Below are positions 6,064 to 64,000 of a stretch of DNA of 64,000 nucleotides, one piece after another. The translations under genes were made by a program, and so were the position numbers. Within the stretch, counting starts at the first letter, position 1, and each line of letters starts with the position of its first letter. The stretch is from Yersinia canariae. Lineage in GTDB: Bacteria > Pseudomonadota > Gammaproteobacteria > Enterobacterales > Enterobacteriaceae. The stretch is from contig NZ_CP043727.1 of assembly GCF_009831415.1 (NCBI RefSeq), forward strand, positions 3,038,001-3,102,000, read 5' to 3'. The notes under the pieces were generated by a model. It had not been told where the DNA came from, ran no database searches, and was given only the letters and a program-made list of their open reading frames with translations.

Positions 6064-6100
6064 CAACGCTACCGCTCTTGGCTTTACAGCTACCAAAGGC
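6064..6100 (-). promoter_or_regulatory. JUMPstart with ops element upstream of manC
   Basis: On the minus strand this reads GCCTTTGGTAGCTGTAAAGC followed by CAAGAGCGGTAGCGTTG. It is the JUMPstart sequence found ahead of O-antigen and capsule operons, including the ops core GCGGTAGCGT at its distal end (first ops base is A rather than G). In enterobacteria RfaH loads onto RNA polymerase paused at ops and keeps it elongating through long polysaccharide operons. It lies about 110 bp before the manC start, inside the 489-bp gap 5956-6444. That gap is otherwise AT-rich, with no gene that I can see, and must also hold the operon promoter and the yegH promoter. Confidence 0.85.
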
Positions 6101-57791: not shown

Positions 57792-58634
57792 ATGAATACG
57801 TCACTTGAACTTCTCGAAGAGCACCGGATGTTTGGTGGATGGCAGCAGCGCTATCGCCACGCCAGCAGCAGCCTGAATTGCAATATGACCTTCAGCATCT
57901 ATCTGCCCCCCCCACGGGATGATAACCCGCCGCCGGTGCTTTATTGGCTATCGGGCCTGACCTGTAATGATGAAAATTTCACATTGAAAGCGGGCGCGCA
58001 GCGGGTTGCTGCTGAGCTAGGGTTGGTTCTGGTGATGCCCGATACCAGCCCACGTGGTGCTGAGGTTCCTAATGATGACGGTTATGATTTAGGCCAAGGG
58101 GCGGGATTCTACCTGAATGCAACACAGGCCCCCTGGTCTGAACATTTTCATATGTACGATTACATCAGCCAGGAATTGCCAGCGCTTATCCGCCAGCACT
58201 TTAGTGTCAATGCCCTGCAATCAATCTGTGGTCACTCAATGGGGGGCCATGGTGCGTTGATGTTGGCTTTACGAAATCCGCAGCAATATCAATCCGCTTC
58301 GGCTTTTGCACCCATAGTCAATCCATGTCAGGTGCCGTGGGGCCGCAAAGCCTTTAGCGCATATTTGGGCGAGGATGAAAGTCAATGGCTTCAATATGAT
58401 AGCTGCCATTTACTGACACATGCGCGAACTCAACTACCCATGTTGGTGGATCAAGGGGATGGGGATCAATTCCTTGCCGACCAATTACAACCGGCAAAAT
58501 TAGCCGAGCTGGCACGCCAGCGCGACTGGCCACTGACTCTTCGTATTCAGCCGGGTTATGATCATAGCTATTTCACCATAGCGACATTTATTGAAGATCA
58601 CTTGCGCTTCCACGCGGAATATTTACACCCGTAA
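57792..58634 (+). CDS. fghA: S-formylglutathione hydrolase, YeiG/FrmB type
   Basis: This esterase splits S-formylglutathione into formate and glutathione. It is 280 residues, alpha/beta hydrolase fold, with catalytic serine in [11 protein letters not shown], the acid in [14 protein letters not shown], and His in [14 protein letters not shown]. The sequence is closest to E. coli YeiG, whose gene follows folE there; here frmA has joined it, giving frmA-fghA in one operon. The AGGAGG ribosome site lies ten bases before ATG. A strong terminator follows. Confidence 0.95.
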
Positions 58635-58669: not shown

Positions 58670-58691
58670 AAGCCCCTCCGGGGGCTTTTTA
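58670..58691 (+). terminator. frmA-fghA terminator
   Basis: AAGCCCC and GGGGCTT pair around a TCCG loop, followed by TTTTATTT. It separates the housekeeping block from the darobactin operon. Confidence 0.92.
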
Positions 58692-58798: not shown

Positions 58799-58856
58799 TT
58801 GATAAAACAGGATAAAAGAATTACAAGTAAATGGCTTAGTACTGTTCAATACTAAG
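58799..58856 (+). promoter_or_regulatory. Candidate darA promoter and inverted repeat
   Basis: TTGATA at 58799-58804 and TACAAG at 58822-58827, 17 bp apart, are a plausible but imperfect sigma-70 promoter. Just downstream (58835-58856) CTTAGTA and TACTAAG form an inverted repeat with an 8-base spacer. It could be an operator or a leader hairpin ahead of darA. The gap 58692-58881 has no gene and is very AT-rich. Confidence 0.4.
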
Positions 58857-58881: not shown

Positions 58882-59091
58882 ATGGAGAATTATATGGACA
58901 TTTCACATCAGCCAGACAGAAAAACAAAAAATACCCATTTAATGGCATTGAAAACCAAGTTAGCATCGTTGGAAAAATCTTTTAAAAACAACACACTCGC
59001 TATAAGTGACGATGAAATTGAAAACCTAATAAATACTAATACCGATAATAAAATAACTGCATGGAATTGGTCAAAAAGCTTTACACAATAG
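58882..59091 (+). CDS. darA: DarA, darobactin A precursor peptide
   Basis: This is a ribosomally made precursor of 69 residues. Near its C-terminus it carries WNWSKSF (59062-59082; W61-F67), the exact core of darobactin A, followed by Thr-Gln. In darobactin the radical SAM enzyme DarE joins Trp1 to Trp3 through an ether and Trp3 to Lys5 through a C-C bond; the bicycle then blocks the lateral gate of BamA. The 60-residue leader is polar, helix-prone (LKTKLASLEKSFKNN, ISDDEIENLINTN). Two starts are possible: ATG 58882 (AGGA ten bases upstream) and ATG 58894 (GGAG six bases upstream, 65 residues). The downstream genes darB, darC, darD and darE support the assignment. It is very AT-rich like the whole operon. 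Confidence 0.96.
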   Translation: MENYMDISHQPDRKTKNTHLMALKTKLASLEKSFKNNTLAISDDEIENLINTNTDNKITAWNWSKSFTQ

Positions 59092-59120
59092 TAAGTTAAC
59101 TAATGATGTTTTATAACAAC

Positions 59121-59154
59121 AGAATTAAGGTGCTTTTATTAGCATCTTAATTCT
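59121..59154 (+). promoter_or_regulatory. Stable hairpin between darA and darB
   Basis: AGAATTAAGGTGCT and AGCATCTTAATTCT form a 14-bp stem (one G-U pair) with a TTTATT loop. No T run follows (GGGAATTACC), so it is more likely an mRNA stabiliser or attenuator than a full terminator. It lies 30 bp after the precursor stop, in a 173-bp gap before darB. Confidence 0.75.
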
Positions 59155-59264
59155 GGGAATTACCATAACTTAATACATTGTGAAATTAATTTAAAAGTAA
59201 AAGACATTACTATTAATTATAAATCAAACCATTACTCTATTTTATTATAAACGGTGAAATATCC

Positions 59265-61640: not shown

Positions 61641-62903
61641 ATGGATATAAAAATAGAAAATAAAATCAATACAAGTAAAATGGTTAAATTAATCATTTTA
61701 TTTATATTGTTTATTATAACTTCTTGCATTTACTATATTTATTATTTATCTACAATGCAGCACACTTTGCTCATGTCACGAGAGGAAGCTGTTTTTCATA
61801 CTATTCAGTTGGAAATGTATCAAGACTCACTAATTACTCGTGCCATTGCAGTGCCAAGAGAAAGCATAATTGTATCGACTGAACGAGGAGGTAAAGTCAC
61901 GGAGGTCGTAAAGCAGGCTTTCGATACTGTTGTAAAAGGTGATGTCATTGCTCGTTTATCTAACTATGATTTTATGCTGGAAGCAACATCTAGAATGGCG
62001 AGTATTACTGAGCAAATAAATAACCTTCGCAATATGCGAATACAGTTAGAACAAGATAATCGAGATACAAAACTTAACTTACAAGAGGCTAAATATCAAA
62101 TAGCTATTATTTCAAAAGATTTAGCCAGATATAAAATACTCGATAGAAAATCGATGATTGCAAAATCCGAGCTGGAATATAAAGTCAGTATGTTAAGCAA
62201 CTGGAAAATTAAAAGTAGAATTCTGAGAGAGCATGATAATAAAAACAAAAGGTTATTCCCTTCGCAATTTAAAAACATAGATAACTCTATTCTATTACTG
62301 GAGCAAATGACGGAGGTAATTAAACGTGGCATGGAACAATTAGTCATAGCTGCCCCAATTGATGGAACTTTATCTGTCCTTGATATTGAATTAGGTCAGC
62401 AAATAAAGCCTGGGGAAAAAATTGCGATAATAGACAATTTGCAATCATATTATTTTAATGTTTATTTCAGTGAGTACTATTTTGATAAAATAAAACCACA
62501 AAGCCACATTACTTCAGCAGTAAACGGCCAAAACATGCCATTACTGATTGAGTCAGTATCAACTATCGTAGAAAATGGTAAATTCAAAGCAAAGCTAATT
62601 CCACTAAAAGAAAGCGCTACTCAATTTAAAAGAGGACAATCCATTGAAATAAAAATCCCATTACAAGAAGAGAATAATCATGTGCTATTAGTACCTACTG
62701 ACAGTATCATTTCAGACAATAATGGAAATTATTTTATCTATATTTATCAATCAGATAATAATCATGCGGTTAAATCTAAAGTCGAGATTAAACGTCGGGG
62801 CTCTACAAATACTGAAATAATAACAGGAGCAAAACCTGGTCAAGTTATCGTTATTCCTCCGGAAGGAAACCGTAATGAACACGATATCATTGGATTTAAA
62901 TAA
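61641..62903 (+). CDS. darC: DarC, HlyD-family membrane-fusion protein
   Basis: This periplasmic adaptor of 420 residues is anchored by one span (KMVKLIILFILFIITSCIYY). A lipoyl-like half (RGGKVTEVVKQAFDTVVKGD and VIARLSN) is followed by a long coiled coil (about 115-215, SITEQINNLRNMRIQLEQD to SELEYKVSMLSNWKIKS) and the second lipoyl half (VIAAPIDGTLSVLDIELGQQ). A C-terminal beta-barrel and membrane-proximal region follow. It would link DarB/DarD to an outer-membrane channel such as TolC. It follows darB by three bases; its end overlaps darD by 29 bp. Confidence 0.87.
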   Translation: MDIKIENKINTSKMVKLIILFILFIITSCIYYIYYLSTMQHTLLMSREEAVFHTIQLEMYQDSLITRAIAVPRESIIVSTERGGKVTEVVKQAFDTVVKGDVIARLSNYDFMLEATSRMASITEQINNLRNMRIQLEQDNRDTKLNLQEAKYQIAIISKDLARYKILDRKSMIAKSELEYKVSMLSNWKIKSRILREHDNKNKRLFPSQFKNIDNSILLLEQMTEVIKRGMEQLVIAAPIDGTLSVLDIELGQQIKPGEKIAIIDNLQSYYFNVYFSEYYFDKIKPQSHITSAVNGQNMPLLIESVSTIVENGKFKAKLIPLKESATQFKRGQSIEIKIPLQEENNHVLLVPTDSIISDNNGNYFIYIYQSDNNHAVKSKVEIKRRGSTNTEIITGAKPGQVIVIPPEGNRNEHDIIGFK

Positions 62904-63564
62904 TATGTTAAATATGCATAATGCCGAAAAATGCTATATCACTAAAACAGTTAAAACTAAGGTTTTTAGTCATCTTAATTTTACTGTAGCAAAAGGTGAC
63001 TTTGTTTCAATTATGGGGCCGTCAGGATCGGGTAAATCAACACTACTTAATATCATTGGTATGTTTGATAGCCTCGACAGTGGTTCATGTACCCTAGCGG
63101 GAAAAGAGACTGTTGGCATGAGCCATTCACAAAAAATAATTCTAAGAAGATTATTAATAAGCTACATATTTCAATCATTTAATCTTATTACTCATTTATC
63201 TATCTTTGATAACATTGCCTTACCCCTCAAATATCGTGGTGTTGCCAAAAAAGAACGTATTGAACGAGTAAATAATATTTTAAATCTTTTCAGCATTGAT
63301 AACAGAAAAAACCATACACCAGCGCAACTATCAGGAGGTCAGCAACAACGAGTAGCAATCGCCAGAGCTATGGTATCCAACCCTGAATTTCTCTTAGCTG
63401 ATGAACCTACCGGAAATTTGGATAGTAAAAATGCCCATGCTGTACTTCAACAATTAAAAAATATAAATAAAAAAGGTACAACTATTATTATGGTTACACA
63501 TTCAGATGAAGCCTCTATATATGGCAACAGAATAATAAAAATGAAAGATGGTAAACTCACATAA
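62875..63564 (+). CDS. darD: DarD, MacB-type ABC ATPase
   Basis: This 229-residue ATPase of the LolD/MacB group powers the DarBC exporter. Walker A is GPSGSGKST (48-56), Q-loop FQSFNLITHLS, signature LSGGQQQRVAIARAM (152 on), Walker B FLLADEPTGNLDS (172 on) and switch His in MVTHSDEAS. The start ATG at 62875 lies seven bases after AAGGA inside the end of darC, which is the best ribosome site; an internal ATG at 62905 would give 219 residues. The next gene, darE, follows after 17 bases. Confidence 0.9.
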   Translation: MNTISLDLNNMLNMHNAEKCYITKTVKTKVFSHLNFTVAKGDFVSIMGPSGSGKSTLLNIIGMFDSLDSGSCTLAGKETVGMSHSQKIILRRLLISYIFQSFNLITHLSIFDNIALPLKYRGVAKKERIERVNNILNLFSIDNRKNHTPAQLSGGQQQRVAIARAMVSNPEFLLADEPTGNLDSKNAHAVLQQLKNINKKGTTIIMVTHSDEASIYGNRIIKMKDGKLT

Positions 63565-63581
63565 CTGACTAGGAATATATC

Positions 63582-64000
63582 TTGGGAAATTTAATACCGA
63601 TACAAAATATTGATTGCATAAATGACGATCACATGAAATATCTAGAGAAACTTAATACTTGTGAGTATAAAATATTATCAGCTTATTTTATTGGTAAGAT
63701 ACCTGCTGAGAATTTATTTGATGCTGATGAATTGGAGATATTAAACCGCGAGATAAATAGAAAAATATCAGCAAAAGCTATTAAAGCAAAAAAACTAGTC
63801 GTTGTATTGAAAGCTACTCGTTTATGTAATCTTCGTTGTACATACTGTCACTCATGGGCCGAGGGCCCTAATCAGACAGTTTCATTTCATACACTAGTCC
63901 GAACGGTACGACAAATCCTTGCTATTCCTAATGTAAATAGATTTGAGTTTGTCTGGCATGGTGGTGAAATTACACTATTGAAGCCAGAGTTTTTTAAAAA
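63582..64000 (+). CDS. darE: DarE, radical SAM darobactin synthase, N-terminal part
   Basis: The first 139 codons are present; the rest lies beyond the right edge. The radical SAM motif CNLRCTYCH (Cys82, Cys86, Cys89; CxxxCxxC) binds the 4Fe-4S cluster used with S-adenosylmethionine, and HGGEIT (about 126-131) is the SAM-binding GGE block. Some 80 residues before the motif form a region that could recognise the leader peptide (helical, charged: DDHMKYLEKLN..., ELEILNREINRKI). I chose the TTG at 63582, behind AGGA, as the start; there is no upstream ATG in frame after the darD stop, and the first in-frame ATG (codon 18) has no ribosome site. By position and the darA core it is DarE, which installs both ring closures. 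Confidence 0.9.
   Translation, partial: MGNLIPIQNIDCINDDHMKYLEKLNTCEYKILSAYFIGKIPAENLFDADELEILNREINRKISAKAIKAKKLVVVLKATRLCNLRCTYCHSWAEGPNQTVSFHTLVRTVRQILAIPNVNRFEFVWHGGEITLLKPEFFK

Follow-up and report, generated by a model that had tools for sequence, protein, structure and literature searches.

A complete darABCDE operon with the exact darobactin A heptapeptide in Yersinia canariae and a conserved hairpin behind its precursor gene

Darobactin A carries W-O-W and W-K links, and according to the sections of PMC9055067 drawn on here, DarE of Photorhabdus khanii alone forms both crosslinks, while E. coli hydrolases take off the leader and follower; a Yersinia cluster is also described there. 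In Table 1 of PMC8694152, seven Yersinia species account for 11 DarA rows, 6 of them of type A. An earlier note on the present DNA had therefore been right that the family is already known in Yersinia. Its mass of about 966 Da for the singly charged ion was also right, the neutral mass of darobactin A given in the consulted part of PMC8694152 being 965.4032 Da. The same part reports that no compound was detected from the predicted producers that were grown, Yersinia included. Here, we compare with these systems a locus from a genome consisting of one contig of 4,710,154 bases. The window, meaning the whole 64,000-nucleotide stretch that was analyzed, covers positions 3038001 to 3102000 of that contig.

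Gene content of the locus and its precursor peptide

Open reading frames and their translations place darA, darB, darC, darD, and darE in dar order in the window, all on the + strand:

57792 to 58634, + strand: left neighbor, S-formylglutathione hydrolase-like, which we take to be fghA
58799 to 58827, + strand: predicted promoter-like block TTGATA-N17-TACAAG upstream of darA
58894 to 59091, + strand: darA, 65 aa from the likelier start; NF038004 darobactin_RiPP, 79.3 bits (cut-off 45)
59062 to 59082, + strand: darobactin A core WNWSKSF, then tail codons ACA CAA and stops TAG TAA
59265 to 61637, + strand: darB, FtsX/MacB-type exporter permease, 790 aa, with FtsX domain; NF038008, 1196.8 bits (cut-off 700)
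61641 to 62903, + strand: darC, HlyD-type periplasmic adaptor, 420 aa; NF038010, 707.9 bits (cut-off 450)
62875 to 63564, + strand: darD, exporter ATPase, 229 aa; NF038007, 424.5 bits (cut-off 375)
63582 to 64000, + strand: darE, radical SAM/SPASM crosslinking enzyme, first 139 codons in the window; NF038005, 805.5 bits (cut-off 650)

We called DarA to DarE by the NCBI curated equivalog cut-offs, which 5/5 Dar proteins exceeded. Together with the gene order, these cut-offs agree with the earlier reading of an FtsX permease, HlyD adaptor, ATPase, and radical SAM gene in dar order. A Pfam search found FtsX, HlyD, ABC, and radical SAM domains in the DarB to DarE products and no family for DarA. 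The darE gene is truncated by the window edge and is full in the genome (434 aa; L002:7583-8887); its cysteines 82, 86, and 89 (CxxxCxxC) and eight further cysteines are common to 10/10 aligned DarE proteins. Its start codon is TTG (window 63582, L002 7583), compared to ATG in each of the remaining 12 of 13 complete Yersinia operons, and this TTG start may lower the DarE level. Behind the 173-nt gap between darA and darB, the genes lie close together (darB-darC 3 nt, darC-darD overlapping, darD-darE 17 nt). The locus thus holds a darobactin-family precursor with a WNWSKSF-type core close to its C terminus, a radical SAM/SPASM enzyme of the DarE type that has the CxxxCxxC motif and the SPASM cysteines, and the exporter genes darB, darC, and darD adjoining darA and darE in the expected order. 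A chance seven-residue match to WNWSKSF is ruled out by the five curated families and the synteny.

The 69-residue frame with exact core and two tail residues that had been claimed for the precursor is present as described: the 69 codons at 58882-59091 (+) end NKITAWNWSKSFTQ, followed by TAG TAA, and the C terminus reads ITA, WNWSKSF, TQ. We searched 25 Yersinia genomes for the core pattern, with the reversed pattern as a control. The pattern matched once each in 18/25 genomes and the reversed control in 2/25. Cores in the 18 loci were WNWSKSF (12), WNWSRSF (5), and WSWSKSF (1), and tails were three residues long in 15/18 and two in 3/18 (TQ in the window, SQ in G010, and AE in G017). A third tail codon, CAA, precedes the stop in 9 of the 11 other WNWSKSF Yersinia loci; the window has TAG there and then an in-frame TAA, and this TAG would appear to be a stop gained within the tail. 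Among the database relatives (33 found, 10 of these retrieved), the TQ ending was observed in P0001, P0002, and P0018 of the 10 retrieved. Two-residue tails recur, then, in other Yersinia loci and in database relatives, and we dropped the tail as a novelty.

The second potential start of darA, at 58894, is ATG in 17/18 Yersinia loci, compared to 10/18 for the first, at 58882. Six loci have AAG as the codon at the first position; it is part of AAGGAG in five of them and of AAGGAT in one, with six bases between this sequence and the second ATG. Therefore, 65 aa from 58894 is the likelier length of DarA, and the first ATG likely falls inside the ribosome-binding sequence. One genome, G020, speaks the opposite way, with the first ATG present and ATA at the second position; nevertheless, we rejected ATG 58882 as the main start. 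Where the earlier note had thought that leader, tail, and start might be new, the novelty of tail and start has proved small, and NCBI already names relatives "darobactin family peptide antibiotic."

Upstream of darA, TTGATA-N17 was found in 18/18 Yersinia loci, 86 to 107 nt ahead of the gene, followed by a second hexamer of TACAAA (14 loci), TACAAG (2), TACACA (1), or TAAAAG (1). This TTGATA-N17-TACAA block looks like a sigma-70 promoter whose second hexamer is weak. A promoter consensus scan, whose rule demands T at position 6, did not list the TTGATA-N17-TACAAG block of the window.

Predicted product, distribution, and possible silence

Because the five-gene operon is complete and its core sequence exact, we consider it highly probable that this darABCDE operon, as predicted from sequence, makes and exports darobactin A, an inhibitor of BamA. 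By analogy with characterized dar operons, transcription would likely begin at the conserved TTGATA-N17-TACAA block, with a start predicted close to 58834, and a hairpin after darA (see below) would likely protect the 3' end of the short darA message, such that the precursor would outnumber the enzyme and exporter. DarE would form the Trp-Trp ether bond and the Trp-Lys C-C bond. Cleavage behind ITA and removal of the TQ tail would fall to unspecific proteases of the host, and DarB, DarC, and DarD would export the product. Darobactin A would then inhibit BamA, the outer-membrane protein assembler. Such a complete locus is a candidate for supplying an antibiotic lead selective for Gram-negative bacteria.

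The operon occupies a common chromosomal slot in Yersinia. The presumed fghA lies left of darA in 18/18 loci, and an MFS gene lies right of darE in 12/18; this gene was not seen in the retrieved stretches of G005, G006, G018, and G020, while those of G004 and G017 end before it. Since the slot is common to the Yersinia loci, it suggests an ancestral Yersinia locus that has been lost repeatedly. We found the operon complete on one retrieved stretch in 13/25 Yersinia genomes. In G004 it is divided between contigs, and a full-length darE lies on another stretch; in G001, G007, and G010 its genes are in pieces, part of which assembly faults could explain; the G017 locus ends at a contig edge; and G023 lacks a core match and has only part of darE, located where a contig ends. 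The remaining 6/25 (G002, G008, G014, G015, G016, and G021) gave no core match and no DarE match exceeding 32% identity. When 394 genomes were sampled evenly across the order, three Yersinia genomes exceeded the DarE cut-off, and the same three were the ones to exceed that of DarA.

Two further features of the surroundings were observed. Phage-tail-like genes (tape measure, sheath, tube, and baseplate-like, read from translations; L002 10857-20000) start about 2 kb past darE, beyond the MFS gene, to the right of the window. Carriage by a known phage was rejected, as a search of the phage collection with DarE at E 1e-30 found nothing. A JUMPstart RNA element (RF01707, 36.3 bits) lies at window 6065-6098 (-); such elements usually precede polysaccharide gene clusters.

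The earlier note had seen in this locus very strong evidence for a producer. Core, gene order, and family hold, and the loss of radical SAM or transport genes from the complete genome, which it had named as counting against the claim, did not occur: all are intact. However, its wording was too strong, given that the consulted part of PMC8694152 reports no compound from the grown predicted producers, Yersinia among them, and for this reason the dar locus may be silent. The corresponding alternative is that the operon, though its sequence is intact, is silent or being lost, and that this strain no longer expresses what was once an ancestral trait of Yersinia. The fragmented operons of G001, G007, and G010, the six genomes with neither core nor close DarE match, the TTG start of darE found only in the window among 13 operons, and the published Yersinia strains without product (PMC8694152, as far as consulted) are all in keeping with it. 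In contrast, the five genes of the window are open and over their cut-offs, the catalytic cysteines are kept, and so are the promoter-like block and the hairpin. We therefore regard a silent relic as possible but on the unlikely side, and a functional darobactin A operon as the preferred reading. What the genomes themselves show is that the genes are present and intact, that the core is exact, that the slot is shared, and that the hairpin covaries.

The hairpin between darA and darB

The gap between darA and darB contains one further element:

59120 to 59155, + strand: darA-darB hairpin, 15-pair stem and 6-nt loop, no T-run after the stem

Folding of the whole gap gave a z-score of -3.66, with 1/200 shuffles as good. 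Hairpins were present in 17/18 Yersinia loci, 19 to 31 nt past the darA stop, with stems of 9 to 15 pairs; in shuffle controls (100 each), none was as good for 14/17 stems (1 for G010, 3 for G013, and 3 for G017). The exception, G022, has a gap of 68 nt and no hairpin, yet its operon is complete, and the hairpin is therefore not required everywhere. We aligned the 17 loci (15 distinct rows) to quantify covariation. In this alignment, whose rows were picked for having the hairpin, which favors pairing, 148/150 cells were paired (98.7%), compared to 18.7 to 49.3% in slid versions, and 6/10 hairpin pairs were compensated on both sides. Both-side changes occurred in 30 cells (shuffled mean, 10.9; 0/500 as high), a count in which related rows enter one event many times; by this measure, compensatory changes exceed the shuffled and slid controls. 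The covariation score was 0.605 (shuffled, 0.299; 0/500 as high), and RNAalifold recovered the identical 10 pairs. Two other covariation measures did not rise above the shuffles (pairs with any both-side change, 272/500 as high; further pair types, 500/500).

We infer that the hairpin is likely a stabilizing 3' end that holds the darA message above that of darB-E. A competing reading sees in it not a stabilizer of the darA 3' end but a leaky terminator, by which part of the transcription into darB-E would be stopped. A stem of 9 to 15 pairs directly 3' of the precursor gene would suit such a terminator, and either role would lead to more darA than darB-E message. However, as tested for intrinsic (rho-independent) termination, 0/17 stems have at least 5 T in any 8-base stretch starting 0 to 2 bases past the stem (maximum, 4), and a terminator scan of the window lists only a site at 58670-58687, not the hairpin. 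Leaky termination is thus a tentative second choice, with odds clearly against it. Very unlikely is a DNA operator for a regulator in place of an RNA element: a palindromic operator would likewise keep its halves complementary, but the arm sequence varies by group (GATTAAGATGC, GGTTAGGCCAT, AATTAGGCCA) with pairing kept, some pairs are G-U, and the repeat lies downstream of darA.

Outside Yersinia, 8/10 loci (G702 left out) had an inverted repeat with 7 or more pairs within 170 nt of the start of the gap, and G627 and G673 had none; the repeats that no shuffle equaled were those of G536, G687, and G757 alone. A Vibrio crassostreae plasmid described below has an inverted repeat 8 nt after the darA stop, found without a shuffle control. 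The literature searched contained no report pairing darobactin with a stem-loop, and matches for a darA terminator were off-topic by title. A conserved stabilizing hairpin would offer a handle on the expression of operons that are silent in the laboratory.

BamA residue 426 and comparison with known dar systems

To read the predicted target, we used the numbering of E. coli BamA (5ayw) for the BamA loci L131-L155, L161-L186, and L191-L204. A family search of G000, the window genome, found one full BamA, and all weaker matches fell in one 584-aa frame, presumably TamA-like. Within residues 422 to 446, the BamA of the window genome differs from that of E. coli at two positions, with Leu in place of Phe at 426 and Val in place of Ala at 442. 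Residue 426 belongs to the strand that darobactin binds. It is Leu in 25/25 Yersinia genomes and Leu or Ile in 10/10 other precursor-bearing enteric genomes (4 g131, 3 g205, 2 g235, and 1 g237; G757 left out), that is, in all five dar-bearing genera read; in 16 genomes without a DarA match it is Phe in 13 and Leu in 3. A family-wide BamA pattern matched 92/149 sampled genomes at 93 places (57/149 without a match were unscored), with Phe at 62, Leu at 20, Met at 7, and Ile at 4. Fisher tests with the dar genera counted once gave P = 0.0098 (4 genera) and P = 0.0029 (5 genera); these are post hoc and unadjusted for kinship, for a residue picked out by eye among about thirty and with G702 counted as dar-bearing though its precursor alone was found. 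In a BamA tree of 32 rows with site 426 removed, carriers stood in several places (5 changes; bootstrap, 4 to 5).

This pattern is suggestive but post hoc. It would fit the idea that dar operons persist only in lineages with an aliphatic residue instead of Phe at position 426 in the gate strand of their own BamA, a target-side tolerance present in parallel in several producer lineages, with the precursor dose set by the hairpin after darA. According to the part of PMC10107326 consulted, F426 and V444 belong to a pocket that analogue D9 uses through its residue 7. Counting against tolerance, the consulted part of PMC10476194 describes darobactin-BamA contacts via backbone hydrogen bonds, and non-Phe residues at 426 are common without dar (26/88 other matches). 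We therefore regard the idea as quite doubtful. Genus g41 (taken as Vibrio) has Ile or Val at 426 in 14/14 genomes, with no DarA found there. Within Yersinia, a BamA change tied to dar presence was rejected: no column sets the 13 genomes with a complete operon apart from the six that lack a close copy, all with Leu at 426. Resistance positions 429, 434, 435, 443, 445, and 807, as given in the part of PMC10135246 used (705 left out), are the same in Yersinia and E. coli, and residue 394 is Tyr for Phe in Yersinia and likewise in 26/26 other enteric genomes. Residue 426 makes producer self-tolerance testable with purified protein, and hairpin and BamA pattern are the parts worth following.

The closest known loci are those of Yersinia listed in PMC8694152, which share genus, operon, and, in the six type A rows, the core. 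The precursor of Y. frederiksenii ATCC 33641 has a leader 74% identical to that of the window darA. Type A rows in the part consulted end TQQ, SQD, or TEN, whereas the window tail is TQ and its darE starts with TTG. The darABCDE operon of P. khanii, the source of darobactin A (PMC9055067 and PMC8694152, as consulted), has the same core, gene order, and enzyme family; Photorhabdus differs in its QEI tail, shorter leader, and, in some strains, a second precursor. In two Photorhabdus-like genomes, DarE is 55% identical to that of the window and the darA-darB gap is longer (578 nt in G536 and 628 nt in G687, versus 173 nt); G536 has the core WNWSKSF, and G687 (L119 and L126) has WNWSKSF plus a second, Photorhabdus-like precursor with WNWIKKF. 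On a V. crassostreae conjugative plasmid (NZ_AP025478.1; L205), darA to darE lie in the same order with the core WNWSKSF, annotated as darobactin, and DarE is 58% identical to that of the window; unlike the window locus, it is plasmid-borne (typed conjugative) and has no tail past the core. This plasmid also carries an extra ABC transporter gene after darE, which could serve immunity or export.

A DarA model run over 392 genomes of the family matched 15, of which 7 exceeded the cut-off (4 Yersinia, 2 g235, and 1 g237) and 8 did not (5 g131 and 3 g205; G731, G506, G702, G432, G559, G638, G757, and G673). Genus g235 would appear to be Photorhabdus, judging from its QEI and PI tails. The eight precursors below the cut-off (L111-L118, L120-L124, and L128-L130) have the core WNWSKGF in seven and WNWSKSF in G506, and G627 (g237; L110 and L125) has a natural WNWSKAF core. 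Relatives of darB-E follow the precursor in 10/11 retrieved non-Yersinia loci, the two Photorhabdus-like ones included; G702 shows none within the retrieved stretch, and in G432 and G757 the dar-like genes are in pieces. The daropeptide-like operons of g131, g205, and g237 thus differ from the window locus in that 8/9 precursors fall below the DarA cut-off and most cores are WNWSKGF. Neither WNWSKGF nor WNWIKKF was found in the literature searched, where WNWSKAF appears only as the engineered compound D16 (PMC10107326, as far as consulted). The natural WNWSKGF and WNWSKAF cores predict darobactin analogues. Operons of the darobactin type are already published, and the window locus is a further instance; new here is a conserved RNA hairpin 3' of the precursor gene, which would likely raise precursor output.
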